The notes beneath the pieces were generated by a model. That model was not told where the DNA came from. It saw nothing but the letters and a program-made list of their open reading frames with translations, and searched no databases. A stretch of 64,000 nt of DNA from Bryum argenteum (lineage: Eukaryota > Streptophyta > Bryopsida > Bryales > Bryaceae). The translations under genes and the position numbers were made by a program. The stretch covers positions 30,730,101-30,794,100 of the forward strand of contig CM073321.1 of the NCBI GenBank assembly GCA_037043015.1, read 5' to 3'. This document shows, piece by piece, positions 21,506-43,939 of the stretch (its first letter is position 1; every line of letters begins with the position of its first letter).

Positions 21506-21585
21506 ATATCTCTATTCATCTATACTTTCGTTTGTTTCAGATATTTTGAATTCTGACTCTGTCATTTACAATTGCAGACAGAACA

Positions 21586-21847
21586 ATGGCTCTTAGCGCC
21601 ACAAATCCCCTCGACATGTCCTTGGACAAGGTCCAGCACCCATTCGGGTTTAACCCATTCCTGCGCAAAAACGATGATGAAAGCCTTGATCTCTAGCTCT
21701 TCAAAGATGTGGTCGTCAGCTAGACACTTAAAATCGTCAAGAACCATGTCCTCATCATGACCAAGATGGTCTACACGGACCCTTTCTTTCCCTTACACCA
21801 GAATGTAAGGGTAACAACATTCAAGGCACACAGGCAGAAGTACATGT
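21586..21847 (+). pseudogene. A-type gene 1, 5' coding part, cut by element B
   Basis: After the acceptor TTTACAATTGCAG the frame starts at ATG 21,586 (MALSATNPLDMSLDKV). It is about 80% identical at DNA level to the copy at 59,961. In-frame TAG codons at 21,694 and 21,721 are shared with that copy. The frame runs into AAGTACATGT, where element B begins. It resumes at 42,775. The uninterrupted copy near 60,215 reads GAAGTACATGTTGCT, which proves the joining. Confidence 0.85.
21844..21847. repeat. Element B target-site duplication, left (ATGT)
   Basis: ATGT precedes the left TIR and ATGT follows the right TIR (42,775-42,778). The uninterrupted homologue at 60,219 has a single ATGT. Confidence 0.9.
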
Positions 21848-21871
21848 AACACGTAATTCATTATAATGGGA
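21848..21871. repeat. Element B left TIR
   Basis: 24 bp starting AACACGTAATTCATTATAAT, inverted without mismatch at 42,751-42,774. Similarity stops directly inside. Confidence 0.95.
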
Positions 21872-22206
21872 TATATACACAAAATGGTAAATACGACTTA
21901 CGGTAATACAATCACACTTAGATTGCACCAAGCCAAATACATTACCAAATAATGTAAGTTTATCAATATAGAGAGAAGTAAACTCAAAATAAAGAGCACG
22001 TTTTATCAATATAGCAGAATATTCTCAAAATAAGAAGACGGAGTAATGAATATACAAACTATACTTAATCAAAAAGAAGAATTCATTCAAAATACAAACA
22101 ATAATTAACACAAATTTACTAAAGGGGGAAGGTTTATTGATTGAAAAATCCAGAAAACAAATTATTGGTGTAATTGTAGACCTCCTAAAGTAAAGCCCAA
22201 AAAAAT

Positions 22207-22693
22207 CTAAATAGTACTACGTGGACGTGCATCACCAAAAGCCTCATTTCTGTCACGCTTCCCAACAACTCGGGGATAGTCTCCTTCAAAGGATAGTCCC
22301 ACACGGGCGATTGTAGTTCGCAAAGGATCATTTAGGTTGACGGGAGCTAAATCGCAGGGTACACCTAGGGCCGTAGAATGACTTGAGATATCGGGAATCC
22401 GTGCCACGGTGCCTGTCGCTGTATCCGGGATGTTATCACGTGAAGCCGCCACCATTCGACTCGGTACATTGACGTAACTATCAACAACATCATCATCATC
22501 ATCATCATCCATGACGTCTTTGGTGTAGTCCACAGCAGATGCGTCATCTCGAGCAAGATATATGTACCGCCCTCGCTCCAACTCCGAGAGTGTCCTCGAC
22601 CCCTCACTATTGTAAGAGGGATCTGACATCATAGAGGGACCCATTGGGGGAATATCATTCAGGAAGGCACTTTGTTGTCCATCGCTGAAAACC
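22207..22693 (-). CDS. Element B small acidic protein (gene 3)
   Basis: The exon starts after a TTATGATATTCAG acceptor (first base about 22,692) and is open to the stop at 22,207, about 160 residues. It reads VFSDGQQSAFLNDIPPMG and continues with an acidic run encoded by an ATC/GAT microsatellite (MDDDDDDDVVDS). The C-terminal half contains GLSFEGDYPRVVGKRDRNEAFGD. The A-type counterpart at 49.6-50.5 kb shares the DxxxDDNVVDS pattern. No enzymatic motif. It could be the last exon of the FCP1-like gene upstream or a separate gene. Confidence 0.5.
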
Positions 22694-22880
22694 TGAATAT
22701 CATAAAAACAAACACTAAATCTTTAAAAGACATTCTAATGGTAGACTCACTAGAACAATTGAAAGTGGCAATTCGCAAATCCAAGACTACAAAATGGTGA
22801 TGATCTGACCAGACATTAGAACACTAAGTCAAGGAGAAAGCAAAGAAACAAATTTTAACCAATACCGTAAATGAAAGTAA

Positions 22881-23900
22881 TCACGACATAGTTCTTCCAT
22901 TTAATAGGAGCTGGTTCCACACATAGGGCAAATTCCGAGACATAATGCCGTACAACTCGGAGTCCTTGGACAAGTCATTGTGAGAGGGTCTACTAGTCAT
23001 AACTTGACGGAAGTTCTGCGGACCTCTCAAATGTACGGCAAAACAAAACTCGTGGATTAATTTCAGTAGATAAGAGTCTGAGGGTGGACCCACATGTGAA
23101 TGGACCCAAGGATCAGCAAAGAGAGTGTTCAGTGGAGGAACAACCATACAAGCCGCAGGATTGCTATCGACCATAATAAAGTTCTGGGCGTTGAAATTAG
23201 CATCCCTTCTAGTGAAGAGACGTCGACGTGGATATTTAAGTAAGATAGGATTAGTCGTGCCAGGGTACATGGCCGTCGTGTAATTCTTCAGCAAGAGACC
23301 GTTGCAGGAGTTTGAGGCGAGTATGATTTGCGGAACGGCAACAGTTCTAGAGAAAAGGAAGTTGCAAAGACCGTCGACTACTTCAGGTTGAAGGGTACTC
23401 CAAACGTGGATATGGCAGAAACGGTCTAACACATTGAGGAATGGTGTAAGTCCAGGACGACAGTATACTACCGTGTCAGCAACTACGGTGGGGATAGTTG
23501 ACGAAAGAACAAGAGGGTGTTTGGGATCGGGAAAAATAAGGTACTGGGATGGGGCTTGAGACACAGGGGTAGTGGATCAAAGGACACTGTTCAACTCCAA
23601 CACCACATTCAACCACTTGGGCATGGACCGGTGTCCATTGAATGATGGCACAGGCGGTAGGCGTTGACCGAGGGTTGTAGGGAAAGTCTTGCTTGAAGAT
23701 TTGGACAATCTAGCCTGCAGCACGACAAATGACAATAGTGGATGATATCAAAACAAGAGTGTTACCTTGTGAAATGCTGAAGCATGCAAATGACTGCTCG
23801 GAGTGATTGAGGACCGGACCACCACACCGACGCACAGCTCAAGGTGGTCGGTGGGGGTTCTGGTGGCAAGCGGACGGAACAAGGTACTCAGAGGCGCGGC
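22881..23900 (-). pseudogene. Element B FCP1/NIF-like HAD protein, catalytic Asp lost
   Basis: Two exons: 23,900-23,766 (after CTTTTATCAG, ending at GTAACA) and 23,714-22,881 (after GCTGCAG). The second reads KWLNVVLELNSVL, a TGA, then VVYCRPGLTPFLNVLDRFCHIHVWS and IMVDSNPAA. This is the order of the FCP1-homology fold: motif I (normally DxDGT), the RPGL segment, VVxWT-type strand and the DDSP motif. Motif I here is ELNSV, so the nucleophile is replaced by Glu, and DDSP reads VDSNP. With the TGA inside motif I this copy cannot be a normal phosphatase. The A-type homologue (48.3-49.3 kb) keeps more of the motifs. FCP1-type enzymes act on the RNA polymerase II CTD. That role here is inference. 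Confidence 0.65.
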
Positions 23901-23992
23901 CTGATAAAAGAATGACGATATTTAGCGCCAAGAATGAGGGAGAATGACGCGGACGCAGTGCAGACGCAAGTGATAAAATAAAAAGTCTTCAT

Positions 23993-23998
23993 TTTATT
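23993..23998 (-). terminator. Poly(A) signal AATAAA after gene 1 of element B
   Basis: AATAAA on the minus strand, about 80 bp past the gene 1 stop (24,076) and about 90 bp before the FCP1-like exon. The A-type element has AATAAA in the equivalent gap (48,198). Confidence 0.5.
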
Positions 23999-25674
23999 GA
24001 ATGGGGGGTCACTATATGGTACTATCTACAATCGTGGCACACCATCCAATAATTTGAAGACTAACTCGCAAGACCTACTCGCCGTCTTCAATGTCGGACT
24101 CCTATAAAACAAGGAGCGCCGGCTTTAAGAATTATTACAAAATGAAAAATCATTCAAGCAGAGCAATAATATGAGCAGATGCTCATCAACGAGATAAACA
24201 GAAATTTAGGTCGACCCCACCTAAACAAGATTTGCAACAATTGATAAGAAGCTCACCGTGGGATTAGTCGCAGGTACTGAGTCCAGTTCGTTGATCGCAG
24301 AGACAAGGGAGATTGGGGCACCTTGAACCGCTCTTTGTACATCTTCCTGCAAGTCTTGACTATCCTCGGGAACCTCATGCACGGAGGTAGCACCATCAAG
24401 AAGATCTTCATTTGCTCGTCCGTGGTCGCTTGCCTCGTAGTCCACGTCGTCATTTCGCTGGTCTGGCGTCTCGAGAGGATGAACGCCATCGTTCTCCCCT
24501 TGCTTGGCGATATCAGCTTCCGAACGAGATGGGTCACTAATGACCTCCTCAATAACAACGTCGGGTACTGGCGTAGCCGGAGCAGGAAGAATGCAGGCTA
24601 GAACTGCAGGATTCGGTTTAGCTGCGAGTTCGGGTGGAGTTTGGCTGGTGGAAGTCGAAGGCCTACAGATAGCCAAAGTAGGCTGATTGACGGGGTTGTA
24701 GGAGGCAAGGGGAAGGGCCACCTGTGCTATCTGCGTCAACAAGACCCTCAAATCGCTCAAATCGCCAAGAACTTTGGAATTTGAGTTCTCCAAATTCGCA
24801 AACTTCGACTCGACTTTGAGTTGATCCTCTTGCCGTTGCTCGTCCAACCTTGCAAGATCTGCAATTCTTTGCGCCTCCCGTCTTGCATTTGCGGCTTCTT
24901 CTTCAGCTCGTTTTGCAGCCCTTCTCTCTTCCTTTTCCTTCTCACGCAGGGCACGCTTGGCATCCTTCGAGAGTGGAACGGGAATGTTCGACTCAATCTT
25001 GACTCGCGACTGTGAAGTTCCACCCTTCTCTTGCGGACCGAGACCAAGATTGATAAGTGGATCGTTAGCCTCTTTTGCTGGCGTGGGGGAATCCGGCTCA
25101 CCCGAGAAATCGAAAAATGGAGTCTCCACCTTCTCAGCAGGGTCGTCAGCGTGAGTATTCCAAACACCCTTCTTCAGCAAAGGGAGGTACCGTCCGCGTA
25201 CAGGGGCAGGAGCAGGTAATGCGAGCACAAAAGACGGCGGAGGCGGGGATGATTCTCTTGCAGGTGGCGCAGGCGGGGATGGCTCTCTTGCAAGTGTCGG
25301 AGGCGGCGTTGATCCCCTTTGTACTGCTGGATCTGACAATGGGGCTTGCATAGGAGCCGGGGAGGATACGACATCATCTCCCAAATTCATAGCAGAGGGA
25401 GCGATATTGTTATCCTCGTCAGACCTTGCAATACCCTCCTCGGCACCCTCTTTGGCGTTCTCTTCGTCAGAACTATCGGAAGTAGGCGCATCTCTGGGCA
25501 ACCTCTCTTGCCCGAGAACGAGGTCCTCCTCCGAATCAGACCCGAAAACATCATTTGCAACCTTGGTGCGGGTCTCTCGACGATGATTGGAGTTGTCTTC
25601 TTCATTATCATCGTCGCTAAGAGTTTTGGGGAGGCCCGTGGAGGCGAGTGTCTCCTCAAGGAGTGTAGGGGGAT

Positions 25675-25697
25675 TTAGGTCGATGCGACCTAAACCC
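25675..25697 (-). repeat. B-type palindrome inside the gene 1 coding sequence
   Basis: A full B-type palindrome (TTTAGGTCG, one spacer triplet, CGACCTAAA) is read in frame as GLGRIDLNPP in the exon that starts near 25,784. Parallel to the in-frame A-type palindromes at 47.26-47.7 kb. Confidence 0.75.
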
Positions 25698-26382
25698 CCA
25701 CCGCGGGCCAAGGAGCCGCGACGCTCGACCAATGGAAGAACTTCATCAACGTCGTCATCAGGCCAAGATTTATCAGCAGGTTCCTGTAAACAGGATCGAT
25801 GCTCTGGATGGGCTCAATGCTTAGAGCCCGCACGCCGTAAGGCCCACTAGGTACGCGACCACGACCACGACCACGCCCACACCCACCACGACCACCGGAT
25901 GACCGAGCGCCACCAGACGACGGATTACTACCACAAGCACGGCCACCAGACGATGGACGACCACCACGAGCAACACCAGCAGACGACGGATCGCCACCAC
26001 CAGCAAGCGACGGATCCCCACCACCAACAGACGATGGTTCGCCATCAGGAGCCACGGCAGGAGAGGATGCCTCACCACGACGAGCACGACCACCAAAATA
26101 CGATGCCTCCCCACGACCACGACGAGCAAATCCGGTAACCCCAGCCTGAGGCGAGCAGCCAGGCTTCGGACCACGAACCCAATCTGGATTCACATAGGCG
26201 TCCACACAGAAGTTGTTCGGATCGAGATTAAAACTACTTTCTCGGACGGCTATATACTTACCCAACTCATCTTTGTCCTCGTAGACCATATGAGTCTGAA
26301 GATTAAGCATCTGCGAAATGAAAATACAAAGTTAGTCCACTAAGAAGAACAGAAGAGCAGATGTGAACTTGACAAAAACAGA

Positions 26383-26551
26383 CATTTAGGTGGCATCGAC
26401 CTAAACGCCCAAAACAGTGTCAAGTCTAAAGAACGCCATGTAAATCTAGTGTACATTAGATTGAGCTGAAATAAATTGACAAGTAAAACAGAAGAGCAGA
26501 TGCGAACTTGACAAAAACAGGCATTTAGGTGGCATCGACCTAAACGCCCAA
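26383..26551. repeat. Two B-type palindromes around the exon 3/4 intron
   Basis: Near-identical units at about 26,380-26,408 and 26,521-26,549 (ATTTAGGTGGCATCGACCTAAACGCC), about 141 bp apart, within a direct repeat (AGAAGAGCAGATG...CTTGACAAAAACAG) surrounding each copy. Confidence 0.8.
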
Positions 26552-27954
26552 AGGAATGACAAACTTACAATTCCTGCAAGCATGGGCTTTGTTCCACCCA
26601 TGATCGACTGAAATCTGTTTCCTGGAACTGTAAACATTCGTAGTACGCAAATGTAAAACTCCAAGCGCAACTCATTGTCGTTGATGCAGAAATCGAACTC
26701 CCTGTAAGCTCTTGGTTTCTGATACAGGAGCAACTCCGGGGCATAGAATACCTCTGGAATTTCATCGAATACCTCCGATACCTGGTGGATTCTCTTCAGA
26801 AGAAACAAGAGTGGAATGTGGTGTTTGTCCACAACCTTCCCCTCCAAGTTACCGTTGAGACGCTCATTGTTCGCGGGAGCGTAGTGAACTGCCTTCGACT
26901 TGTACAAATCCTTGAAAGCGTTGAAATATACGACGGCCTGGCAATGACGATCGGTAGTCTCCGTAATAATAAGCCAGACGTCAGGATTCTTGATGGAGGG
27001 GTCATACACAGAATCCTTCCAAGCATTCAGGAAGTCCTTAAAGTAGACATTCGAAATATCATCCCCTCTGCTACTATGGCCCGGGACGCATCTGAGGTCG
27101 ATAATGTCCATAATGCCCAACGCGCATCTTCCATCGTCCCAAGTATACCCATCATCCCAGCCAACGAATTGAAACGTCTCAGCATCAAGCATTCTTGTGT
27201 GAAGTTCCGGGGTTGGCAGCGAAAAATCCCCTTTCAATTCCAAAAACTTCTTGAAGAACTCCGCAGCGTACTCGGAGATCTCTTCAGAACTCTTGTTCTT
27301 CGTCCTCTTCTGGGCGGTAGTCGCTGAAGAACATGTCCCCGGGCACGGAAAGGAGCATCGACATGGTCTGCCGATTGACGTTGTAATCGAACTTGAAAAG
27401 CTTCCACTTTTCAACCACAAACTCGTCAGCACTGTCGAATAACCCCAGTGCTGGCCTGATGTTGTGGAACTCTCTTGCAACGCATTTCTTCCTCTTGCGC
27501 TTCTCCAGCCACACCTTTATCGAAACGCACTCCCAGTAGTTCAGCTTCGGTTTCTTCAAGGACACCTTGGGATACGGTAGGTCCCGGTCCGGAGTCCTAT
27601 TCAGAAGATGAAGCGCTAGTGTCTTAAAGTCGTGCTCCTCAAATCCAGACATTTGCCTGAAGGTATCGCGAGTCAAGACGATGTCCTTATGTTTTGACTC
27701 CCAGTCAAGAGCCCGGTTGAAAGGCTCGCAAGTGTCGGGGTCGATCAACATTCCAATCCCGACTACAATGATAAGTTCGGACCACAGCTGGTACACCTCC
27801 TCAGAAGCGGTGATGATTTCTAATTCGTTGAGGAGGTCCGCAGGCTTCAAGAGCTTGTCGAGAGATTTCGTGTTGATACTCATGAAGCGTTTCACCATGG
27901 CCTCTTCAAAATCCTGAAGAAAAAAGAGCGACATCAATTCAAGAATATGACGGG

Positions 27955-28080
27955 ATGATCATTTAGCTCGAGTCCAGCTAAACGCACGAAATTTAGGTCG
28001 AGTCTAGCTAAACGCACAGAATTTAGCTCGCATCGACATAAACACCTGAAATTTAGGTCGCGTCGACCTAAACGCCACAA
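27955..28080. repeat. Four B-type palindromes in the exon 2/3 intron
   Basis: Four copies at about 30-bp spacing (27,959, 27,991, 28,021, 28,052). The last is perfect: TTTAGGTCGCGTCGACCTAAA without its final base shift. They fill most of the intron between 28,118 and 27,914. Confidence 0.85.
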
Positions 28081-29494
28081 ATCAAGCAGATCAAATTACA
28101 AGAAAATGCAGGACTTACCTCATAGTTCTTTCGAGCGATAGCTTGCTCGATCGTTTCCCGACCAGACTTGGGCTTTGCACCACACTTCGCGGGCGACCCG
28201 TATTCTATATAAACACTTCTCGCGGCCAATATGTTTGTGGCCCACGATGGTGTGAATGTTCCCGCATTGTTGGTCTTGTTCGCCATGATTGACACGTCCA
28301 TGGTCATCTTCGCGTCTGAATGCCAAACAATATGAGCCCGCCAAGTCTTCAAGGCGGTAGTTTTATCGGCTGAGATTCTAGCCTCCTTGATAAGCTCCTT
28401 CGCAGCTTCGACGTGATGTTGCCCATCGATCACACGGAAGTTGCACTTTGACTTGAGCAGTGCATCCCAGTCCCAAGTCGCAGGAGCCACAGTGATGATG
28501 GGCATGATGATGATGGTCTGCCTTGAATTCAAATCGATCGAATTCGTCAGGATATTCTTGTAATGGACAACTCCAGCGGACTCAAGTTTTCGGACGATGA
28601 AGCGCGCATCAGCTTTCTCGAGGAGATCGATGTCCACATTGACAAGAGCCGAGTCCTTGCCAAAAACGTAACAAGGCTCGCACTTTTCCCAGAAGTCCTT
28701 CAGAGTCTTACTTGCAGCTTCGTAGTCGATGTCCTTCTCGGTTGTGGCATGCTTGATTGAAGGATTCATGTACGTAATTGTACTGCCTGCCAAATTACTC
28801 TTGATTCTCTTGGCCTGCTTAACTGGCGAGGGGTTCGAGTTGCGGCGTTTCTGCGAAGGCGTAGGAGTTACCTCAATGGAGGCCATACCAGATCGCGCTG
28901 TTCCTGACCCGGTACCCTTCTCAAAAGCAGGCATGAGTGCTTCCTTGCGGGTGCTTTGCCTTTCGCCTTGCTTCTCTCGTAGTCGTTCAGAGCACTCCAG
29001 ATATGCATGCAATACTGCTGGTACGTCTGCACAAATTTCTTCGGAGAGCTCACATTCAGTATTCCACCGACGATGTGGTCTACGAGCCCCGCCTCCATCT
29101 TCTCGACCATGTAACCCTTGATAGTGTCGTGCGAGTATCGCACTTCATTCGAAGGAAAGACGATGGTGAAGACGAATCCACGAACGTAGGTCACCATCAG
29201 CGTGATGAGAAGGTGTGACTCCTCATAGTTCACCGCGTAAATGAAAGTGTCGTTGCAGAATGGGAGATGGGTAGGATTAGTTCCAGACTGTTGAAACAGG
29301 TGGAAAATTCCTTTCTCCTTCGAGTACAAGGACCACGACACAATGGAATTTGGCTTAGGAGTCCACAACATGCCGTATTGCTCGACGTCCCCGACAGCAG
29401 AGGCAAGTACATCTGTAGGCTCGACAACAAGGGGCTCCAGGTATCCTTCAATAGTACTAAGGTCAAACGGTACCTGATTTTAAAGAAGCAACAA

Positions 29495-30535
29495 GATGTG
29501 CGTTTAGCAGGCATCTACCTAAAAGATGTGCGTATAGCAGGCATGTACCTAAAAGTCGTGTGTTTAGCAGGCACCTACCTAAAAGATGTGCGCTATGAAG
29601 TCATCTACCTAACATCTACTGGATATGAATTTAAACAAACGATCAGAATTTAAAAACAAACCATTAAAGTACAAGAAAAATTCATACCTGATTGTCAAGA
29701 GGTTCATCCTGACTCCTAGAACGGATGTCCCTCTCTGCGGGAGCGGGAACGATTGTAGCAGTCTGTTTGGTGCGAGCCATGTCTGCAATTCAGCGCAATA
29801 ACTGTGCGTTTAGCAGGCATCTACCTAACAGATGTGCGTTTTGGAGGCAGCTACCTAAAAGATCTGCGTTAAGCAGGCAGCTACTTAGAGATGTGCGTTT
29901 AGCAGGCATCTACCTAAAAAAGGTGTGTTTAGCAGGCACCTACCTAAAAGATGTGCGCTATGAAGTCATCTACCTAACATCTGTGCATTTGGAAGGCAGC
30001 TACCTAACAGTAGTGTTTTAAGGAGGCAGCTAAGTAAGAGGTGTGCGATAAGGGGGCAGCTCCCTAAAAAATGTGCATTTAGCAGGGAGCTACCTAAAAG
30101 CTGTGGGTTTAGCATGGTGCTACGTAAAACATGTGCGTTTATCAGGGAGCTAGCTAAAAGATATGCGTTAAGTAGGCATGTACGAAACATTTGTGCGTTA
30201 AGGAGGCAGCCACGTACGAGCTATGCTTTAAGGAGGCAGCTACGTAAAAAATGTGCATTTAGCAGGGTGCTACCTAAAAGCAATTCGTTTAGAAAGCAGC
30301 TACATCAATGGTGTGCGTTTAGAAAGCAGCTACCTAAAAGCTGTGCGTTTGAAAAGCAGCTATCTAAAAGCAGTGGGTTAAGCAGGCAGCTACCTAAAAA
30401 GTGTGCGTTTAGTAGGTAGCTACCTAAAAGCTGTGCGTTTAGCTCGTGAAATTGGAGATACCAATTTTTGCGACCTAAAAGATGTGCGTTTAGCTCGTAA
30501 AATAGGAAATACCTGATTTTGCGACCTAAATGCAC
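29495..30535. repeat. 30-bp repeat array, about 34 units
   Basis: Unit about 30 bp, GTGCGTTTAGCAGGCAGCTA followed by CCTAAAAGAT, itself a degenerate B-type palindrome (TTTAGC...CCTAAA). Units vary by point changes and spacing is regular. Coding exon 1 of gene 1 (29,780-29,688) sits inside it, so the array occupies the flanking introns. Not a CRISPR: no unique spacers and eukaryotic setting. The mirror array is at 37,965-38,900. Confidence 0.85.
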
Positions 30536-30862
30536 ATACATCGACCTAAATGCACAATGTAAAATGTAGAGCGCGGAGAGTCGAAAAATGCAAGATCAGA
30601 TTGGAATTGAAATGCAAATGCGTAAGAAATCGGGATCACGTATGCAAATTGCGTACCTGCTAAGAGTGGAGAGAGGAAAAGCAAGCGTGCTTGAAATGTT
30701 GAGACCCTAGCCGCAAATCAGAAATCAAAACAAGAACGACCTAATCGCAGCAGAAACCCCAGTCAATCGCAGCAGTAGAAACCCCAGCTCAAACGCAGCT
30801 CAATCGCAACAGTAAAAACCCCAGCTCATTCGCAGCAAAAACCCCAGCTCAATCGCGCTAAG
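30430..30862 (-). promoter_or_regulatory. Inverted promoter arm, left
   Basis: About 430 bp that recur inverted at 37,610-38,060 with only scattered differences. Shared parts: repeated GATTGAGCTGGGGTTTCTAC units, TGATTTGCGGCTAGGGTCTCA, CTTTTCCTCTCTCCACTCTTAGCAG followed by donor GTACGC, then TTTTTCGACTCTCCGC. The shared donor implies a non-coding first exon spliced across the repeat array to the coding exon. Confidence 0.8.
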
Positions 30863-30939
30863 AGGGAGACGTAGAACACCAGCAAGAAGACCGCGACGAT
30901 CGGCACAAATGCTCGAAGGTGGGAGGACGTGCGACGACA

Positions 30940-31325
30940 AGAAGAACGAATGGCGAGGAGATCGAAGAAGGAATGGCGAGGAGCACGAAGAAGCAATGGC
31001 GAGGAGCACAAAGAACAAATGGCGAGGAGCTGAGTGGGAGGAGCGGCGAACGGCAATGCGAGCGAAAAACAGCGAGAGTGTCGGCGGGGCGCTCGCGCGG
31101 GAGATGTCGGCGACCCCGCCGACTGCCCAGGGTATGGGCCACGTGGCGGCTGCTTGGGCTGCCCCACGAACATTAGGCGGCAATGGGCCGCTGCCCGGGC
31201 TGCCCCTGAGTGCCCGCAGCCCGTCCGTGATGGGGCAGCGCTGCCCGGGGTGCCCTGGCTGCCCCGTGGTGTCCGCTGCCCTTACAGGATGGGGCAACAC
31301 TGCCCGGTGTGTTCGCTGCCGTAGT
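30940..31325. repeat. GGCGAGGAG tandem repeats and GGGCAGC-rich block
   Basis: 30,946-31,035 has about four to five units of AATGGCGAGGAGCACGAAGA. 31,105-31,325 is GC-rich with many GGGCAGC/GCTGCCC words and a palindromic CTGCCCGGG. A similar GCAGC-rich block faces it across the core at 37,360-37,600. ORFs here are composition artefacts. Confidence 0.65.
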
Positions 31326-33966
31326 ATTGTAATTTTTTTGTTTTTTTAATTACTACAGTTTGTTAAATTCAAACACTGTAATTCACAATATTTATTTTTG
31401 TATGTTCTTTTTTGCACTTCCATTACTTACAAAATGTCCAAATTTATTAATTTCTAATTCTTAGAATATTCTCTAGACCACTTTACTGCACTTTTTGAGA
31501 TTTATTTAACCCAAAGAGTCCAAACAAGCGGATTATTATCGAACCTCATTTTTGAAGAGCAATAAGCAAATTATATAAGTTACTTTTTTATTTATTTTGT
31601 AACCTATTTGAAGTTTGTTAAGTCATAAACGCCATTCAATTCTCAAGATTCTAATTGATTTGTTAGAATGATTGTTCCGAATTAGCCTTCAATCACAAAT
31701 ACGACAAAGTTTCCTTATTCTAAGATTATTCGGCGTAATTATTATGGATTCTTATTATTTACTTCTACTTTATTACGATTTTATCATATAATATTTGATT
31801 TTAGTCAAAGATAACTGTTTCTAATTACTAACTAAGAAAATTACATTCCTACCTGGTTTGGTTATTAATCAGGTCTAGTTCGAGTTGTAAAATTTGCAAG
31901 TTCATACAATAAAGTATAATTAATGATATGCATTCAAGAGAAGAGAACTCTTGTTTTTGGGTTTCCAAGCCTAAAGCATGTATTACAATTGCAAGCAATT
32001 ATGTGAAATGAAAAATAATATTTGATGATTTTATTTTTTCATGGTTAAATCTTAGGAGATCCTTAACAACTTTGTAATGTGTAGTTTTTTGTTTCCAATG
32101 ATTTTGATATTGGATTTGCAATGATGTTTTGCCAACAGTAAAAATGAAGAATGTATGATACTTGAAAAACTATATCTCTCTCATCCACTGTTAGAATTCA
32201 ACTTAATTTTTTGAAATGGCCTCCAATGTTTTGAAATGTTCAGTAGTTTCTACGATTGCATGACTTTTATTTCAGCCAAGAAATTTTTTTGATGTATTTT
32301 TGTTAAATAAAACTCATAAAGATAAATGCGAACAACTTAATCTCATTGGTTATAATTTCATTGCAATACGTATATTAGTAGCAATTTTACAACATAGTCT
32401 AAATAATAAAATTTTGCAATTTATTTTTGATATTAATAAGTTATGATCTTCCAATTTATAAGACCTCAAATATTGGTCCACAATATCTTCGATAAGTCTA
32501 TTACAAGTTTGTACGATTTAACTTCTAATAGCTTCTAATGGTTTTTATCTAAAACAATTTCTATAAAAATGTGCTATTTTGCTAAAAATAGCCCCGATCG
32601 TTAAGAAGTTAAGTTCAAAATATCAATTTAGAGTTCTCTATTTGATTTGCTAAATTGTTCGAATTACCTTTCAATCCCAAACACAACAAAGTTTAAATAT
32701 TATAATAATTTGTTCTATTTTACGTAAATATTAAGGTTCCTCATTAAGTACTTCTAGTCTATTTTGATTTAATCATATAATGACTAATTTTAGCCAATCA
32801 TAACTATTTACAAGTACTACTTAAAATAATAACATTTTAGATTAATTTAAAAGATTATACACATCTTAATTACCTATAAAACAAATGATAGTTAATTTAC
32901 AAACATTGTTCGAATACATTCAATTCAAAATTTACGATTATAATACAGTTTTTAAGACGATGCTTCATCATAATTATGTTGTTCATATTGTATAAAACAT
33001 CTAAGTTTTTCTTCTAACTTCTCGAGTTTTAAGCATTTTAAATATCGTCATTTCATATAAATTATTACATATAATTGCTTTATTCATTTGTTTTTGTCAA
33101 AATTGTATCATTTTTATATAGTCATTATTAGCTGGAATTCAACTGTCTTTGCTGTTATTAATATATTTGTAACTACACGTCTACTATAGTTGTATGCTTA
33201 ATATTTTAATTGTTTGCTATAAAATGAGTTACATAAATTAAACTCAAAAAAAAAAAATACAAAAATAACACTTTTATTTCATTTTTTTAATATATTTTGA
33301 ATGTTTAAACTGTTATTACATTTACATTCTACTTTTTCATTCCTTACTTATTTATTAATGTTAGTTATATAAATTGCATTCATAACATTACATATAGATG
33401 CAATTATGTATATAATATTTCTTTGCATTTCTACAGTTCTTTTAATTTTTTTTAATAATAATCATAACATGATACTTACCTAGCCAAATAATGGAATTTT
33501 TCTATTTGTTTCATTAATCTATTTTATCATTATTTTTAAATATTTTGTTCATTTTGAACAGTATTAATCAGAATGAACCGTATAGATGTAATACTGATAT
33601 AATTTTAGATATTAGATTTTATAATCTATACACGCTAATTTTTAGTTTAATCAAAATTTATAATTTTTCTTAGTTTTTAATTTGCTATTTTACTTCTTTT
33701 TTTGAAATTTGTATCGATGTATATTTTTGACAATAGAGTAAAATAGTTTATTTGTTTCATAAAAGTATGGATATTTCAATATTACATTTCTCTAAGATAC
33801 TAGTTATTTAATTTTAATTGCAAAATTGATCAACATTCAATCTATATTGAATATATTCGCAAGCATTTACAATTAGAATAAGTTTTAAATGAAAAAAATC
33901 CTAATAAATTACATTTCTCCTTTTTCTGAACATGATTTCTTGGTTTTTTTTCGTTTTTATATGCGA

Positions 33967-34050
33967 CGGTGTATATCAAACAAGGAACGGTGTATATCAA
34001 ACAAGCAACGGTATATATCAAATGAGCAACAGTGTATATCAAGCAAAAAC
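33967..34050. repeat. Four tandem 21-bp units
   Basis: Units of CGGTGTATATCAAACAAGNAA, the first two nearly identical and the fourth diverged. Confidence 0.75.
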
Positions 34051-34688
34051 ATTGTTTATGTAATGACAGTTCACAATTTAAAATCAAATAAAGAAACATA
34101 ATTCTTTATCTTCTTATGTATCGAATCTGAAATTCGTCTATGCGCATTAATTATGTCAGAAACACAATCGCAAACTTGGTAGGAAAGAACTTTGTATTTG
34201 CCATTTCTACAACCTTTTATCATAGCTGTAGCAATGTTTCAACACTCCTCAACATAGAAGAATGCAAAATATATAAGACTTATTGCAATCTTTTCACACA
34301 AAATTGAAACTCAACACAAGTCGAGTGTCGTCTATCACTTCCTCAAAAAAATGTAAGGAAGTAATAAAGTGCACGCCAGAAGATAAAATTATCCATATTG
34401 ATGAAACAGTAAGAAAATCATTTATGATCGAATAGTTTCATTCGTTTCGATTTTAATAATCAATTTGGATTCTCTGGATGTATGTACATTGTTGCTGCTT
34501 GGGGGTTTATTGGGATGATTTTCTGAAGAGTTTGTCACTTCGTCCGGACAACATGGTGAAAGATCCTGGCTTGGATAGCTGATGAGGTAGATAGCGCGTG
34601 GATGTTGCAGGTCCGAACTTGAGTGGATTGTTCGGAAGAACGTCAAGAACGACCGCTGGATACACCTTCTCCAAAGCCAACAAGGAAT

Positions 34689-34761
34689 AGTGTTGTAATT
34701 CAATATAATGTTATTATTCACAGTGAGAAGTGTTGTAATTCAATATAATGTTATCATTCAC
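34689..34761. repeat. Two internal copies resembling the element B TIR
   Basis: AGTGTTGTAATTCAATATAA occurs twice about 39 bp apart, each followed by TGTTATYATTCAC. The 16-mer GTAATTCAATATAATG differs from the TIR word GTAATTCATTATAATG at one base. Confidence 0.6.
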
Positions 34762-37359
34762 TGATTTTGAGAAATATTACATATTTGACTAAATATGAAC
34801 AATGCGCGTTCTACAATTAAGAACAATATTTGCAAATTGATTTCTAAAATCTAGGTTCCATGAAGATAGTCTTTTAATATCTAGATTTTAAGATCATAGA
34901 TGGAGGGATCTCCCCATGTTTTAAAGTCCATAAATAAGTCGAAAGTCCATATTTAGTTAAATGATGCATAAATGTGGGTTCAACTTGAGTCGAACTAGAT
35001 GTACCCACACAATACATTTGGCTCAACTGAAGCTCAATTTTCATCAATTTCATAATCTGAATATTCCCATTATAACAAATTACGTGTTTTATGCTTGCGT
35101 TTAAGCTTAAGAAGATTCAGTACTAAAAAACTTCATTTCTTTAATTACTTTTCATAAATCTTCATCCAATGATTACACAAGGTCAAATAATCTAAGACAT
35201 AAGCATAGAATAGTTTCAATTTCTCACACATAGAGTTTCTTAAATATTCAAGTGTTTATTTAGTTATTTAATCCTCAGGAATGAAAGTTAAAATCTAATA
35301 TAACGTTGTAGAATAAGTAATACTAAAGATAAGAATAAAATGGTTATCTAATTAAAAATTGTCACAGTAGATTAATTTCTGTCTCTTGTATAATTATGAA
35401 TTTGTATTCAGTTTGTGTTAATGTACCTTTACTTTCAGTTACAATACAACTTAGAGATCTTCGATAATATTTTTACTTTTCGAAAATGTATGTTTTCATT
35501 TGTAAGCATGAAACTGCTTTATTCTACTTATTCAAACGTTGTGGATGAAAGACTGATGCATTGCAAAATGAGGTTTGCATATGTCGCGCTTTTACAATAG
35601 CTAACATTTGAAATAACGAGAGTATAAGTCGAACGGAATTATACCAAATTTATATAGAAGTTGTTTAGCGGAAATTTCATTCAAACAACAGATCCGAGTT
35701 TCAATATAACTTAGAAAATCAAGTGTATGTTTGATTTTGTGACAAATTTTAATCAAGATGTATTCGTATGGATATTAAAGTTGCCGTAAAAAAGTTACCA
35801 TTACTGCTACGGTAGAACCGACGCAGGTAGATAAGTATATATTAACATAATATTAGCCCGTAAAATAACCCGATCATATAATACGAATGACATGTATATC
35901 TAACTTAATATAAAATAAATATTTATGTTGAAAATTGTGTTTACGTATTTTGTTTGTTATTTATTTATGGAAATTTGATTTATCGTTTATATTTTAATAT
36001 TATAAAATTTAAGAATAATTATATAAAATTTAAGAATAATTTTACTCCGTTAAAATATATTATAATTTGTTCTTAAATTTATTTAAATTAAAATACCTTG
36101 ATTGTTTTATTTTATTACTTCTGTTTTTTCGTTTGATTTTAATGATTTTATAGAAAAATTTATGCTCAGTTTGATGATTTACAACTAGTTTATGTATTTG
36201 AAATATACATTGAATTATAAGTATTATCTTCGTGAATAAACAAGTTTTTGATAAATATAACATGTAATATGTTACATCTATAAAAAATTTATATCAATTG
36301 ATATGTAATAAGCTAAAGACTATATTAAAGTTAACAATATTAGATGGATTTATTTTCTGAAAATATTAATTTTTTCTAAAAATTTATATGTATGATTTAG
36401 TTTTCAAAAAGTTATAAAAATAAATTGTTATACTTTATTTAAAGCCTTAATAATCGTTATATGCTAATAACTTTAGATATGATATTTGTTACATCATTTT
36501 TGGTATGAAAATAATATTTAATTATTTGCTTTTCGAGTATAGATAATAGTTTGATTAAATTTAGAGTAAAGTATACTAAAATTAGTATTTAGTAAATAAG
36601 TATGAACTTATATTAACATAATTCTTACTAAATTTGGTGATGTAATATAAGAATAATTAGGATTCAAACATTTTATAAGTAGTATTCTAATTTTTGTGTT
36701 TATTTTAAGTGTTGAGATATTCTAATCTAAGTATTTGGAAAATAACGTTCGGTAACCTACATATATTAGTACTAATAATTTCTAATAGAGGTATTCTAGG
36801 ATTAAAATTGTTGTAAGTGCAATATTCAAAGTTTATTACCTACGTACAATATGTTGTGTCTTGTTAATTTATTTATTTACTAGATTTGATGTGGTATACT
36901 AAAATAAATATTACGTAAATGAAGTTTGATATGATAGCTATAATATATTAGAATTTCATTAAAAGTTGGTTTATTAAGATTCGAATCTAGATATTGTAAG
37001 GGAAATATTCTAAGATTTTAATTGAGCTATTTGATGATCAATACTCAAAGTTTAGTAACTCCTAAAGTATATGTACTATTCTAGGTCTGGAATAATTTAG
37101 TTATTTTGAATGTGTTATTGTATGATTCGATTTGAATTATTTTTATTCATTTATTTTGAGATTGATCTAAAGTGAGTACTTCAGCACAACGTTAGAAAGT
37201 GTGATAGAAAGAGTAATAAATTATTTATTAGCCTATGTATAATCAAAATCTTAATCAATGATTTTGAAACAAATAAGTTAGTTGCATTACGGAATTATGT
37301 CTTAATTTTTTAATTAAAATATATTTCAGACTTAATTTATTTTGATCATTGGATTTATC

Positions 37360-38060
37360 TGGGGCAGCAGGCACCCCCGGGCACCCCCCGGCAGCAGCCC
37401 TACGCCGCCACGTCGCGCAAAGCAGGCCGGGCAGCGGGCGCCATCAAGGCGCAGGGCAGCCCGCCCCCCGTTGGCGCGAGCTTCCCGCCCGATTTCGAAT
37501 GAACTTCCCGCCTCGCATTGCCACCTAGGGGCCCCAGCCGGCTCGCTCCGCCAGCCAGCCCCAGCCAGCACTCCGCCAGCCTTCAAGCAACGCTTAAGCA
37601 TGCCAGCTCAAGCATGCTAGCGATTGAGCTGGGGATTCTACTGCAGCGATTGAGCTACGATTGAGCTGCGATTGAGCTGGGGTTTCTACTGCTGCGGTTG
37701 AGCTGGGGTTTCTGCTGCGATTGAGCTGGGGTTTCTACTGCTGCGATTGAGCTGGGGTTTTGCTGCGATTAGGTCGTGCTTGTTTTGATCCCTGATTTGC
37801 GGCTAGGGTCTCAGCATTTCAAGCGCGCTTGCTTTTCCTCTCTCCACTCTTAGCAGGTACGCAATTTGCATACGCGATTCCGATTTCTTACGCATTTGCA
37901 TTTCAATTCCAATCTGATCTTGCATTTTTCGACTCTCCGCACTCTACATTTTTCATTGTGCATTTAGGTCGATGGGTGTGCATTTAGGTCGCAAAATCAG
38001 GTATTTCCTATTTTACGAGCTAAACGCACAGCTTTAAGGTCGCAGCCTGCTAAACGCACA
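37360..38060 (+). promoter_or_regulatory. Inverted promoter arm, right, with GC-rich block
   Basis: 37,360-37,600 is GC-rich (GGCAGCAGGCACCCCCGGGC). 37,610-38,060 mirrors 30,430-30,862 and drives the opposite direction. It ends exon 1 at TCTTAGCAG followed by donor GTACGC (about 37,858). Both gene sets would therefore share the same promoter sequence. Confidence 0.8.
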
Positions 38061-38900
38061 CCTTTTAGGTCGGAGCCTGCTAAACGCACTGCTTTAGGTA
38101 GCTGCCTGCTAATCGCACAGATTTTAGGTCGCTACCCGCTAAATGCACGGTGTGTAGGTTGATGCCTATTGAACGCAGTGTTTAGATCGCTACTTGATAA
38201 ACGCACAGTGGTTAGGACTCTCCCAACTCAACGCAGTGTTTGGTCGCTGCATACTAAACGCACAGTGTTGAGTACTCTCCCATCTAAACGCAGTGTTAGG
38301 TCGTTGTCTGCTAAACGCACATTGTATAGGTCAATGTCTGCTAAACGCACAAAGTTTAGGTCGCAACCTGCTAAATGCATAGATATAAGGTCGCTGCCTG
38401 GTAAGCACACGGTGTGTAGGTCGATGCCATCTTAATTTAGAGTATTTAGGTCGCTGCCTGCTAAACGCACTATTCAGGTCGCCTCCAACCGAACGCAATG
38501 TTCAGGTCGCTTCCTTAAAACGATTAGTGTACATGTCACTGCCTACTATACATTCAGTGATTAGGTCCCTGCTTGCTAAGCGCTCGGTGTGTAGGTCTCT
38601 GCCTGTGTAACGCAGTGTTTAGGTCGTTGCCTTCTAAAAGCACAGTGGTAAGAACTCTCGCAACTGATCGCAGTGTTAGGTCGCTGTTTCCTAAACGCAG
38701 TGTTTAGGTCGCTGCCTGCTAAACAGGCAGTTTTCAGGTCGATCCCGACTAGAGGCAGTGGTTAGGTCGCTGTCTGCTAAACGCAGTGTTTAGGTCGATC
38801 CCATATAGATGCAGAGTGTTTAGATCGCTGCCTGGTAAACCCGATCTGTTTAGGTCGATGCATCCTAAACGCACGGTATTTGTTTAAGTTATTGTTCCGA
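37965..38900. repeat. Mirror repeat array, about 28 units
   Basis: Units of about 31 bp, TTTAGGTCGCTGCCTGCTAA then ACGCACAG, the inverse of the 29.5-30.5 kb units but more diverged. Located in the inferred 5'UTR intron of the DUF7869-like gene. Confidence 0.85.
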
Positions 38901-39138
38901 GCTATGTCAACAGTCTAATGGTTTAGATCGTTCGTACTGGATGTCAAATGATTATTTATGAACTAGTATGTTAGGTAGGAAATTAAGTCTAGTCGAGCTA
39001 AATACTACTTCCTTAGGTTTTTCTCAGCATGTTCTGAGATTTCATGTTTGCGTGTTCATTTCTCAAATGGTTATTTGAATCTTTTGTGATGTTGTATAGC
39101 ATATTTACGGAGCTATAATCAGGGTGTGACCGCTCTAC

Positions 39139-42069
39139 ATGGCGAGTAGTGCGTCCGACGACGACTGGGACAATCGAGGTCTTTCTTCAGAGGTATTATA
39201 ATCTCTAGGGCTTTGTTTCCATCGACGTCTATGGTGGTTCCTTGTTTAACATAATTGTTTTTTGGTTATTAGGATTTGGAAGATGTTGAGCTCGTTCTGC
39301 CGGATCGTTTGAAGAATTGTCCTGAACTCCCGAGATGCAAATAGATAACCAAATTTGTGACACTATTGAATCCTGGAGGGGCCATTGTTGCAGAGGGTAT
39401 TTGTCAAAGTGTGGGGTCTGATTGTGTATTGGGCTCTGATGACGAGCCTTTGCGAGATGATGAAGTAGTTGTTCAGATCGTAAAGTGCTTGGATTTAGAG
39501 TTTCTGCCTTCTGATACAATATTTCAGTCATTGAAATGGGATCTCAGCCACGCCATTCATGACGGTTGGTCTTTACTTGATCATTTGCATCGGGAGCAAT
39601 ACAATATTGCGGTTTATGCTCGAGATCAACCGAAGAGGAAAGGAGTTCGTCCATATACTTTGGGAGAAAGACATCCTAAGATCCACAGAACTCGGAGGGA
39701 AGAGCAACTATTGACCGTAGAGTCTGTCAATTTGGTTGCAATTATGAAGTGTTGCAGTTAAATTGTTGTTAGCCATTCCCTCGCCAAAAGATTCTGACCT
39801 TGAGAAAGCAGATGTACGAGTCTTCAGATTTTAACTTCAAGGCGCACTTTAAGATTGATGTACATCATCGATTTCATAAAACTGCTGACGGAAGTATGAT
39901 GGTTACAACGGAAGGTATTGATATTTGTGCTCGAGCTTGGCAGAATATTACTGGAGTTCCTCCCCAACATTTTACGGAAGAAAGCGGGGCGGGCGGCCGT
40001 TTTACGGCTCGATATCACGGGAATGTTGGCTCCAAGAAACCACGAATTCATGTGAAGCAAGCTGCTGCAACGCTTAAAGTGTTAATCGACAACGCAGCTG
40101 ATCATATGCCGCAGAAAGCGAAGATGCTGAGTAATGGACTCAACGTAGTTTCACGGTCATTGCCTTCGTCCTTCAAATGGAAAGATATGATCCTAGCTAT
40201 CAATCTCATCAACGAGAGGTTGGGGCTGAAATTCATCGCCCAAAGTACTCTCAGCACGATTAGGCGAACAATATTCTCCGAGTATTCGAAGAAAGCACCC
40301 GGAGACTATTTTGCTCGATGTGCAACGTGTGATAAACTTGAGACCATGATCAAGTCCATGGTGCTAGATTCAAGTGAAGAGAACATGTGGATCAAAAAGC
40401 TTAAACTGCACTTGGACCATCAGCAAACACATCGTGAGTATTATTATACGAACCGCTCTTTATCTATTCAAAGGCCCAAAGATGTTCTTTGCATTATCCA
40501 CGACAAAATGAATCATGCGAAAACGGCTTGTCCTTTGTTCTCTCACAAAACAAAAACAAATGATGCACTTATGAAATTTCCTATTGCTGTGACGGGAATG
40601 ATTGCTCACGGGCATTGCGATGTTCGTTATGCTGACTATGGACTTGACATTTATCCCAGTGATTGCAATCACACTGTTGGATCTTTTTGAAGCTTCTCCG
40701 AGATTCAGTAGGAGTTCCAATATCACATTCCAAGTCATTGTTTGTTGGATCTGGAACGCATCATTTGTTTGAGGCATTGCTTGTCGGAAAAGATGCTTGT
40801 TTGAACTCTCTTTTGCCTGAGAGTGAGTCATAAGGAGCTATGGAATCCCTTCCTCCAGTTTTACATGTGCAACTTGACAACACCGCCTCCGATAACAAAA
40901 ATCGATTCATGTTTTGCTTTTGGTCCCTTCTGGTACATGTGGGCATTTTCCGTGAAATTTACGTCAATTTTCTTTTAGTTGGACATACTCATGAAGATAT
41001 TGACGCTCTGTTTGGACGTTGGAGTATGATTTTAAAGGAGAATGACTATTTGACGATTCCTCTTCTGATGAAATTGTTCATGGAAGCTGTGGCACTCCTA
41101 GTTATTCCGCATTTGATTGAGGAGATTCCCGATTTTAAAGGATATATCAAGGATTTCATTGCTTCTAAAGACGAAGTTCTTGTTGGTCATTCGGAAGGGC
41201 AACAATTTAAATTTTTCAAACATGACAACGGGTGGCCCATGATGAAGTACAAGATGTTATGTTCTGACAATGAGTGGCTTCCATCGACTAGTGAAGGAAT
41301 CAAATTGTGGAAAGAGAATTCTATTACTGGTATGCCTCTATTGCCTACGGGAGAAATGAAGCCTCTAGCGTCAATTCCTATGAAGAATATCGATGAAATT
41401 GTAAAAGGTATATCAGGTTTCATTAAGATGTGGGAAACTTCATGTGCCCAAGACTTGTCAGGAGAGTTTCGTCGACGACATGATTCCGTTTTACGATATT
41501 GGCATGCAGTCAATGATTTTTTGTTGGTGCCCATGGAAGTTTCTTCTACTTTGAAAAACGGATGTTAGCCTTTGTCTCGAGTACCGTTGATTCGAGAATA
41601 TCTGAACACTGGCGAATTATGCAAGGAATATGGGCAAGACCCCCATTTTATTGGCCGATTGTGTGCTAAACCAAGAGAGTCATTTCGCGTTGGTCGAGAT
41701 GTATTTGTCGGCTACTTTTTGGCTTTACGTCCTGCAGATGGAGATGCTCGACCCTTTTGGATTGCGCGGGCTTTGACTGATTTCGATGTAGATCGCAACA
41801 ATCCGGGATGTATTCAAATTCAATTTTTTAAACCTTTTAGCAAGCGCGCTCTTGTTCAAGATACCTATGTCGGCTGGGACACACAAAAGAATTTTAAATG
41901 GGTTTTTGATGACAGCCATGACCCGGTCTGGCTTTATGCTGGTGCTATTTTTACAGCATGGAAATGGAGTGCCAAAGCTGGTTCTCAACGTCCAACAATC
42001 TCAATATCTGAGCAACAAGTAACTATCATCAAACAAAGTATTCTGCGTTTTGAGGTCGAGGATGAATAA
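39139..42069 (+). pseudogene. Element B DUF7869-like protein, candidate transposase (broken)
   Basis: ATG 39,139 (MASSASDDDWDNRGLSSE) with donor GTATTA. Second exon after TTGGTTATTAG (39,274). Landmarks: LLNPGGAIVAEGICQSV, DGWSLLDHL, a Cys cluster, EGIDICARAWQNITGVP, CIIHDKMNHAKTACPLFSHK, TGMIAHGHCDVRYADYGLDIYP, LHVQLDNTASDNKNRF, VGHTHEDIDALFGRW, IPHLIEEIPDFKGYIKDFI. The C-terminal domain reads PFWIARALTDF and YVGWDTQKNFKW. Breaks: TAG near 39,341 (Trp in copy C), a frameshift and TAG near 39,760-39,775 (Gln in copy C), a frameshift near 40,687, TAA near 40,830, TAG at 41,566 (Trp in copy C). Length about 950 residues. The Asp pairs in HDKMNH, QLDN and HTHEDID could form a DDE/D triad. That is inference. 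Confidence 0.8.
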
Positions 42070-42300
42070 AATTTTTGATCACTCAAGACATTGGTATTTA
42101 GGTCACGTCGACCTAAATAGTCAATCGCGGCTTTAGCTATTATGGAGGACAAAGTGGATAAGAGCAACAAAGTATTCTGGGTTTTGAGGCGGAGGAGGAA
42201 TAAACATTTTGATCACTGAAGACATTGGTATTTAGCTCACGTGGACCTAAATAGTCAATCGCGGCTTTAGCTATTATGGAGGACAAAGTGGGCAAGGGCT
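42030..42300. repeat. 134-bp tandem duplication at the DUF7869 3' end with two B-type palindromes
   Basis: Two units (about 42,030-42,163 and 42,164-42,297) contain the end of the coding sequence (CAAAGTATTCTG...GAGGATGAATAAA), then ATTTAGGTCACGTCGACCTA or its variant, then CAATCGCGGCTTTAGC. Confidence 0.8.
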
Positions 42301-42750
42301 CGTCCATAATTTTTTCTCGAATTGGATTTAAGCTCAATAACGTTGAAGTTGTTTAGAGCTTTCTCGTTCTAGGCAGAATCAGATAAGTAGATTGGTGTAA
42401 TTTTTTTGTAGTAGCACTGTATTGTAACTGATATTTTAAATAGAATCGTATCTTTAGAACTATATGTAATATTTGACATTGTGATGATTACTCATTTTAA
42501 GGTGTTTTCCGTTCTGATTTGCTATTCTTTCTAAATTAGATATGGAATGTGTTTTGACCATTCCAAATATATGTTCTCAATATAGTTGAGTTTCTTGTTT
42601 TAATGGGATGTTTTGCTTATATTAGAGAGTTTTGAGTTTCTTATTTTGCACTTTAGGTTGAGCTGAAGTCCTTTTTGTGGGATTTAGATCGATGATAATA
42701 GAAATATTCTCACTTTAACGAAATATGTTATTTGATGATAATTTGAATAT
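42301..42750. other. AT-rich 3' flank of the DUF7869-like gene
   Basis: No ORF. Two degenerate B-type half-sites (CTTTAGGTTGAGCTGAAG near 42,651 and ATTTAGATCGATGATAAT near 42,684) precede the right TIR. Confidence 0.5.
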
Positions 42751-42774
42751 TCCCATTATAATGAATTACGTGTT
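42751..42774. repeat. Element B right TIR
   Basis: Perfect inverse of 21,848-21,871. Followed by ATGT (42,775-42,778), the right target duplication. Just inside it reads ATATTCAAAT, also found inside the left end of element C. Confidence 0.95.
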
Positions 42775-43939
42775 ATGTTGCTCAGGTGTGTCCTTCTACA
42801 GTAGGACGAGGGTAGGGAACCTTACCACTTCGGAATTGTGGTAGAGGTGGGAGTAGACTACGGAGCACAGCTCGACCCGCACGGCTTTCTTGAGGAACTA
42901 CGCAAGAATCGGCATGGCTTTCTCAAGTTCTGGTAGGACAACATCAACATCTTGGAGAACATCAACTAGGAAGATACAAATCGGAAGCTTACGACAATGC
43001 CGTCAAGACTATCACAGACGCATGAAGGATCAAGCAGTAAAGCGGCAAAGAAGAAGAGGGCACACGCCGCGTCTGCACTTGTCCTGCATCCTGAAGCTTC
43101 AGCTCCGCTATCTAGTGGTGTTCTGCCGACTCCTCCGCCAGTGCCTGCGAAGAGGTTGATGAATGATGCAATTGTAGCGGACGGAGCCGCCCCAAAAAGA
43201 AGAGACATCGTACCGCTCCCCCTGCAACCGCAAGTCAAGGGTTTGCCTTAACTTCTACAGTCAAAGTGCCCGCTCGACAGACGAAGGATACATCCAAACC
43301 TTTGGCTGAAGTGGCACACTATGTGACGTTTGCTTTTGAGCACACAGTCTTCAACGCCAGCTTCAAAGACTCGTTCTTGTTTAAGAAAGAACAGAAGCTG
43401 GTGCCCATTTTGTAGCTTGAGAGGGGAAAGCTCACGTGGGTAGTGCAAAGTCTTGAAAGGGACATCATATCGAACACTAAGCAATACCTCTCAAGGATGG
43501 GAGATATTACTCAGAGGCAGACACTTATCATTACCCATCTTGACGCCAATGGAAATTTGCTCCCTAGGCAGCCGACATCATGGGAGGCAATCAAGGATGG
43601 AAGATTTGCCATCATTGATGGCCAGCACTCCGTGGAAGCCTTGAGGGAGCTTCAGAACGAGCCAGTGACAGAGGACAGGAAGAAAGAACTTCTATCGTGG
43701 TATGCGTACATTCTTTCCTTCGACCGACCTGAAGCGCCTTCCGGCGATTTCGGCATTCTACAACACCACGAACCCTCTTAAGCACGCCCAGCCGACGTGG
43801 GGCAACCAGATAAAACCTCAGAGGTCTATTTGGATCGACTATGGGCGTCCGTTCGCAAGCGTGAACGAGAACGTGACTCGGAATAACGACTCGGTCCACA
43901 ATCCCACCATTTTCAAGGTAAGACAATACACATTTCTCA

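Follow-up and report, generated by a model that had tools for sequence, protein, structure and literature searches.

Organization of the E element

The window analyzed here, a continuous stretch of 64,000 nucleotides (C1:30730101-30794100 within a 258.8-Mb assembly of 25 contigs), carries between positions 21848 and 42774 one copy of a large transposable element, designated E. Both ends of E are formed by perfect terminal inverted repeats (TIRs) of 24 bp (21848-21871 on the plus strand and 42751-42774 on the minus strand; 25 bp if the flanking T/A is counted), and the end sequences are AACACG...CGTGTT. The tetranucleotide ATGT is duplicated beside the element (21844-21847 and 42775-42778), and a homologous site without insertion (59829-60744) carries a single ATGT near 60219. 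The left flank of E (21454-21847) matches this empty site at 80% (59829-60222) and the right flank (42775-43299) at 76% (60219-60744). A complete transposon with these repeats, duplication, and empty site had been described in the initial annotation, and this description is confirmed.

The genes of E are arranged divergently. A transposase gene with the DUF7869 domain (39273-42066) is located on the plus strand, while the minus strand carries a ParB-like gene of three exons (exon 1, a DGQH protein, 28119-29479; exon 2, a methyltransferase-like region of weak assignment with unrecognizable catalytic motifs, 26569-27913; exon 3, a Pro/Ser/acidic region, 24227-26310), a HAD/NIF-type phosphatase-like protein (22884-23921), and a small acidic protein (22210-22722). 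In the window copy, the transposase gene and all three exons are frameshifted, and the HAD gene contains a stop. Among the proteins listed in the initial annotation, those with DUF7869 (E value 5e-37) and NIF/HAD (E value 1e-8) domains were recovered by Pfam, whereas the ParB-like protein is recognized by its DGQH motif only.

Copies of E in the assembly

A search for the exact 25-mer TIR gave 147 matches assembly-wide and none for the reversed control. A total of 19 additional copies were fetched by the criterion that both 300-bp ends match, and 17 of these are flanked by identical 4-bp sequences (18 of 20 counting the window copy; the exceptions are L023/L024 and L031/L032), indicating that the length of target duplication is 4 bp. 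The genome search proposed at the outset thus yielded both the repeats and the duplications. Copies with other borders had been named as a sign against the element: all 19 share the borders of E, 17 with duplications there, but both ends had served to select them, and no search was made for copies with other borders. Ten fetched copies, each represented by about 10 kb from either end, are collinear with the window copy, with about 75-97% identity in long aligned blocks. The central region (30800-37600) is more than 90% identical among the closest copies, despite the absence of coding constraint in its tested part (about 34647-37447). The E family therefore has constant ends, target duplications of 4 bp, and numerous copies in collinear arrangement. 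It is practically certain that E is a transposon, and it is best explained as a giant DNA element of autonomous type, about 21 kb in length, of a plant and probably a moss.

The probable DUF7869 transposase

The reading frame of the transposase is open across 933 codons in copy L028, and the ratio of nonsynonymous to synonymous changes (pN/pS) across copies is 0.13. The AlphaFold2 (AF2) model of this protein (pLDDT 80) shows an RNase H-like order of strands, as read by eye, and the conserved residues D414, D539, and D579/D581 are located as expected. Upon comparison of the model by VIA-align, 41 of 50 rows were retroviral integrases or DDE transposases; the rows include Mos1, Metnase, Sleeping Beauty, IstA, and TnsB, and the match extends chiefly up to residue 613. 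A structural comparison with DDE superfamilies had been suggested in the initial annotation. Some values reduce the weight of this result: the VIA Z scores are below 8, a range in which the tool warns of common arrangements, the pTM of the model is 0.57, and Foldseek detected no significant match for the transposase in PDB (best E value 0.63). No significant match was found in BFVD. Altogether the DUF7869 protein is, as judged from the predicted model, the conserved residues, and the pN/pS, very probably a DDE/D transposase of the RNase H fold, and its action at the 24-bp TIRs is strongly supported.

In our Pfam scans, DUF7869 was limited to three full-length proteins (P0122, P0127, and P0130). 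Relatives of the transposase are present in Ceratodon and Physcomitrium, and it is from these relatives that the host is taken to be a plant. The search of the assembly for DUF7869 gave 1811 candidate places, of which 150 of the 151 scored matches are listed, and no match in 14 control genomes. A degraded third copy of the DUF7869 gene is located at 61072-63661, near the empty site, in pieces 63-79% identical to the family transposase.

Palindromes of the E family

The sequence TTTAG-N11-CTAAA occurs 26 times in E against a Markov expectation of 0.05. The spacing is nearly exact: among the 29 pairs of TTTAG and CTAAA with gaps of 0-30, 26 are at gap 11 and one each at 6, 18, and 20. The palindrome is 21 bp in length, and the majority sequence of isolated sites across copies is TTTAGGTCGCAGCGACCTAAA. 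Coding sequence makes up 44% of E, and only two of the 26 palindromes start in it (P = 7e-5). When as many as five mismatches to the strict form were tolerated, 44 sites were identified (mean 0.8 and maximum 10 for 200 permuted half-sites), including four in intron 1 (27962-28072), two in intron 2 (26385-26544), one between exon 3 and the HAD gene (24205-24225), two 3' of the transposase gene (42097-42251), and two in coding sequence. The remaining sites form two arrays of about 30-bp units, inverted relative to each other, one upstream of the ParB-like gene (29503-30443) and the other upstream of the transposase gene (38019-39002). Ten other copies of E carry 8-20 TTTAG-N11-CTAAA sites per fetched half. 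One palindrome inside the coding sequence of exon 3 (25674-25694) reads GRIDLN on the minus strand.

Across the E-family sites, G9 is kept in 252 of 289 and C13 in 246 of 289, with variation at positions 8 and 14. A hairpin was considered and rejected: four of the five inner position pairs pair below the shuffled mean, and the pair 9/13 is slightly above it, within the shuffled range. Since there is no covariation between inner arm positions, protein-bound half-sites fit better than a hairpin.

Palindromes of the A-type element and of L055

The same window contains a second, A-type element, in which the gene order of E is repeated in the same divergent layout with different palindromes, so that the initial claim of a lineage with consistent organization holds, as it also does for the collinear copies of E. 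The main part of the A-type DUF7869 transposase is on the minus strand (967-2989, with an N-terminal stretch at 16360-16497), and the plus strand carries the ParB-like DGQH exon (43416-43851), the methyltransferase-like exon (44475-45575), and the HAD/NIF protein (48487-49275). No pair of terminal repeats was found for this element within the window, and its left end is therefore probably outside. Between E and A, the transposases are 45-56% identical, the ParB-like exons 33-37%, exon 2 about 21%, and the HAD proteins about 26%.

The A-type sites resemble TTATCCCCG-NNN-CGGGGATAA and occupy the same introns and gaps as those of E, in intron 1 (43944-44136; two and one mismatches), intron 2 (45621-45797), between exon 3 and the HAD gene (47263-47709; two, zero, and two mismatches), and between the HAD and acidic genes (four and two mismatches). 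Two arrays are at positions equivalent to those of E, one upstream of the transposase gene (16794-17482) and the other on the ParB-like side (20909-21501). The pairs of TTATC and GATAA in A comprise 11 at gap 11, three at gap 10, and one at gap 24. No A-type site was found in E, and one weak E-type site (five mismatches) in A; the strict forms of both have a common CG-NNN-CG core. Assembly-wide, the strict forms of E and A were found 106 and 965 times, respectively, and the reversed controls not at all. The palindromes are thus specific to the family and nearly all located in noncoding DNA. As for other features of the A-type element, its region contains a remnant of a hAT-type transposon (DUF659 and hAT dimerization domain; 5578-7437), and arrays of A-type palindromes elsewhere on C1 (968725-969711 and 975554-976303) proceed in steps of about 61-62 bp in one and about 43-47 bp in the other.

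E-like sites were also found on L055 (CADCWO010000071.1), a public contig from another source and the only one with DUF7869 among 422 stretches of GTDB contigs (none among 142 stretches of IMG/VR). L055 is filed under a Synechococcales cyanobacterium bin though its transposase is eukaryotic, and is probably a eukaryotic contaminant contig. This transposase is 48% identical to the first alignment sequence, and it is flanked by five TTTAG-N11-CTAAA sites, with none inside; these are the only pairs of TTTAG and CTAAA over gaps 0-30 (expectation 0.002). The sites of L055 keep the outer arms of E with a different interior (the right half ends AGCTAAA) and follow the CG-NNN-CG core in part. The arms of the palindrome have thus not been switched in every lineage.

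Candidate reader of the palindromes

Subterminal repeats of CACTA and hAT elements are the binding sites of their transposases, and the palindromes might likewise be bound by the transposase itself, as sites of internal synapsis or end recognition. In E as well as in L055, sites are located directly downstream of the transposase gene, which agrees with this idea, and the difference in palindrome between E and A could follow the transposase. However, even the perfect-arm sites nearest to the ends of E are 484 and 523 bp away from them, and most sites are located deep inside, within introns and promoter-side arrays, making binding by the transposase improbable. Even less likely, the palindromes are by-products without any element-encoded reader, such as unstable minisatellites or sites of a host factor that multiplied through slippage and gene conversion. 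Many sites are indeed in tandem arrays, and the E-like arms persist in L055 at a transposase identity of 48%, as the site of a host factor might, but isolated sites of different sequences are present in the same introns and gaps of two lineages, the spacing is near-exact, and coding sequence is avoided. On balance we consider the palindromes rather probable candidate sites of a factor encoded by the element itself.

Accessory genes

Across copies, the ParB-like exon has a pN/pS of 0.20, exons 2 and 3 have values of 0.25 and 0.38, and the HAD gene and the acidic protein have values of 0.32 and 0.64, compared with 0.91 in the central noncoding control. Several genes of E are thus under purifying selection, indicating that the accessory genes are maintained while copies spread. 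This reading is tempered by the method, a rough count restricted to codons with a single change and made against one reference, and by a second, smaller noncoding control (933 codons) that gave 0.57. In view of the latter value, the weakly constrained acidic gene is not securely coding.

The usual nucleophile of HAD enzymes is the Asp of motif I. This motif reads LELN in the window copy and in ten fetched left halves, and LDIN in A-type, indicating that the nucleophile Asp is replaced by Glu in the E family.

Outside the family, no homologue of the ParB-like protein was found among 7,719 candidates, although split exons may have been lost to the length filter, and phage sequences gave no match at an E value of 10. 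The order of strands and motifs in exon 2 resembles beta-class DNA methyltransferases, as compared by eye with the known rules, while no DPPY or FxGxG motif could be seen by the same rules in E or A-type copies. Alignment of exon 2 with seven beta-class methyltransferases by hhalign gave a score of 23.5, while 20 shuffles reached at most 18.1, and its sole profile match to this class is in the motif X-I region. Counting against the assignment are the probability of only 1.8% for this alignment and the AF2 model of exon 2 from two window rows, with pLDDT 30, which was not used. Neither the profile of exon 2 nor the ParB exon gave a match in sequence searches of solved structures. Exon 2 is thus weakly assigned as methyltransferase-like.

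Relationship to known transposons

EnSpm/CACTA was set aside on the usual criteria of CACTA-type ends and the CACTA transposase domain, the ends of E being AACACG...CGTGTT and DUF7869 being confined to the three Pfam-positive proteins, and a Polinton or endogenous virus was rejected because capsid, polymerase, and packaging genes were absent from the Pfam scans of 20 open reading frames of the window, ten of them in E. KDZ transposons generate 8-bp duplications and carry a KDZ transposase domain. E has 4-bp duplications, with no KDZ domain in the Pfam scans, and resembles the KDZ giant transposons of algae and fungi (PMC12477816) in being large and multigene.

Sola transposons are commonly defined by TIRs and a DDD/E transposase of the RNase H fold; E has such repeats and very probably such a transposase, together with the 4-bp duplication. 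Duplications of this length are reported for Sola2 (PMC3627910) and for a Sola1 family (PMC6875170). In Ectocarpus (PMC12477816), the Sola-1 element Sola1-1_Ec32 (21.5 kb) encodes, besides its transposase, an opposite-strand protein of 1104 aa with ParB and DNA methyltransferase parts, for which self-methylation is proposed. E is similar in its size of about 21 kb, in the 4-bp duplication, and in the opposite-strand ParB-like gene (by DGQH motif and layout, at the motif level only), but differs in its three exons, in a methyltransferase-like part that lacks clear motifs, in additional HAD and acidic genes, and in family-specific palindromes; the two are likened by description.

In view of the Ectocarpus element, the initial claim that no classified superfamily matches the gene set is not established. 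That DUF7869 elements form a superfamily distinct from all classified ones is less likely than not. In its favor, DUF7869 was found by Pfam only in three full-length proteins, Foldseek gave no significant match, and the term DUF7869 was unmatched in the open-license literature searched; against it, the 4-bp duplication and the ParB companion agree with the Sola-1 element (PMC12477816). Among the open-license papers listed, no title or abstract opening dealt with DUF7869 elements or their family-specific palindromes. We regard it as rather improbable that E is an Ectocarpus-type Sola-1 element of which the ParB-like protein, with an active DNA methyltransferase, marks the transposon's own DNA. 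The size (21.5 kb for the Ectocarpus element), opposite-strand gene, and duplications are in agreement with this possibility, as are the conservation of exon 2 (pN/pS 0.25) and its methyltransferase profile match at the motif X-I region, but neither DPPY nor FxGxG was seen by eye in E or A-type copies, and the profile match is very weak.

Proposed role of the palindromes

VANDALs are Mutator-like elements. The VANDALs of Arabidopsis carry a motif of 9 bases (YAGTATTAY), and VANC21 binds its own motif in introns, intergenic regions, and terminal noncoding regions, causing loss of DNA methylation (PMC5735166). The palindromes of E are alike in being element-specific, located in introns, intergenic and terminal noncoding regions, arranged in tandem arrays, and different between relatives, and unlike in the 21-bp palindromic form, the candidate ParB-like reader, and the DUF7869 transposase (PMC5735166). 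E thus carries a lineage-specific motif concentrated in its noncoding parts, of which L055 shares the outer arms, and from this resemblance in distribution to the VANC21 and VANC6 motifs a VANC-class function may be inferred.

The explanation that we prefer, at slightly better than even confidence for the whole, is a DUF7869 transposon with self-read palindromes of VANC-like function. The transposase probably acts by cut-and-paste at the TIRs, with a stagger of 4 bp. The divergent ParB-like gene, with its ParB-like exon, methyltransferase-like exon, and acidic tail, would encode a putative DNA-binding factor that reads the 21-bp palindromes of its own element, and the binding may mark the element as a whole for transcription or for anti-silencing, in the way that VANC proteins act on VANDAL; anti-silencing as the outcome is suggested tentatively, by analogy. 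The HAD-like protein, with Glu in place of the nucleophile Asp, would be a noncatalytic partner. Some lineages such as E and A may have changed protein and palindrome together, so that each would act on its own kind.

Several observations weigh against this explanation. The E-type ParB-like exon belongs to no family in Pfam or NCBIfam, and many E-family copies bear stops or frameshifts. One of the 20 E-family half-copies (L033) has a single TTATC-N11-GATAA, the A-type sites in intron 2 have as many as four and five mismatches, and the permuted null was made for E only. The transposase of L055 is about as distant as that of A-type, yet the outer TTTAG/CTAAA arms of E are kept.

It is conceivable, at somewhat less than even probability, that E represents a second, independently evolved system of sequence-specific self-recognition in plant transposons, with a putative ParB-like reader, a palindrome with CG-NNN-CG core, arms switched between E and A with L055 E-like, private circuits for DUF7869 lineages, and methyltransferase-like and HAD helpers as noncatalytic scaffolds. 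Should the element's own protein be the reader of the palindromes, the VANC logic would have evolved at least twice in plants from apparently unrelated proteins, pointing to a general strategy. The elements might then provide natural matched pairs of protein and site for studies of specificity switches in DNA binding. They might also help explain how elements of 20 kb could multiply in nearly complete form, mostly on a single chromosome.

Subfamilies and distribution on C1

Numbers of DUF7869, ParB-like, and exon 2 matches given here are those of listed scored matches and represent lower bounds. For 11 ParB-like matches, a DUF7869 match is listed at a distance of up to 20 kb, and eight of these pairs are divergent (mean 1.15 and maximum 6 for 200 shifts), seven of them at 8.9-12.0 kb. 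For exon 2, all five neighbors in this range are in divergent orientation at 12.1-13.6 kb, a number not above the null maximum of 5 (mean 0.94); the totals of neighbors, 11 for ParB and 5 for exon 2, are also not above the null maxima, 11 and 12. Copies in these divergent pairs are 56-61% (ParB) and 26-27% (exon 2) identical to the query.

The first 100 listed of the 147 exact TIR matches are all on C1, which contains 17% of the assembly bases (binomial P = 2e-42 for at least 100 of 147). Among the listed TIR matches there are 30 facing neighbor pairs, 22 less than 50 kb apart, spanning 18.9-36.8 kb, and eight more than 114 kb apart. Since all the close pairs are of this span, no copies of the size of miniature inverted-repeat transposable elements are present among the listed exact-TIR pairs on C1, a count that does not cover diverged TIRs and other contigs.

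C1 (44.1 Mb) is strongly enriched in these elements: it contains at least 100 of the 147 exact TIRs, and of the 149 scored matches of the ParB-like exon (916 candidates) it holds 126. The A-type exon 2 gave 118 scored matches (755 candidates), 82 on C1. The DUF7869 matches on C1 number five among the 80 best-scoring listed and 32 among the next 70. Two transposase relatives in Ceratodon have VG locus tags, read as V chromosome, and on this ground we speculate that C1 could be a sex chromosome.

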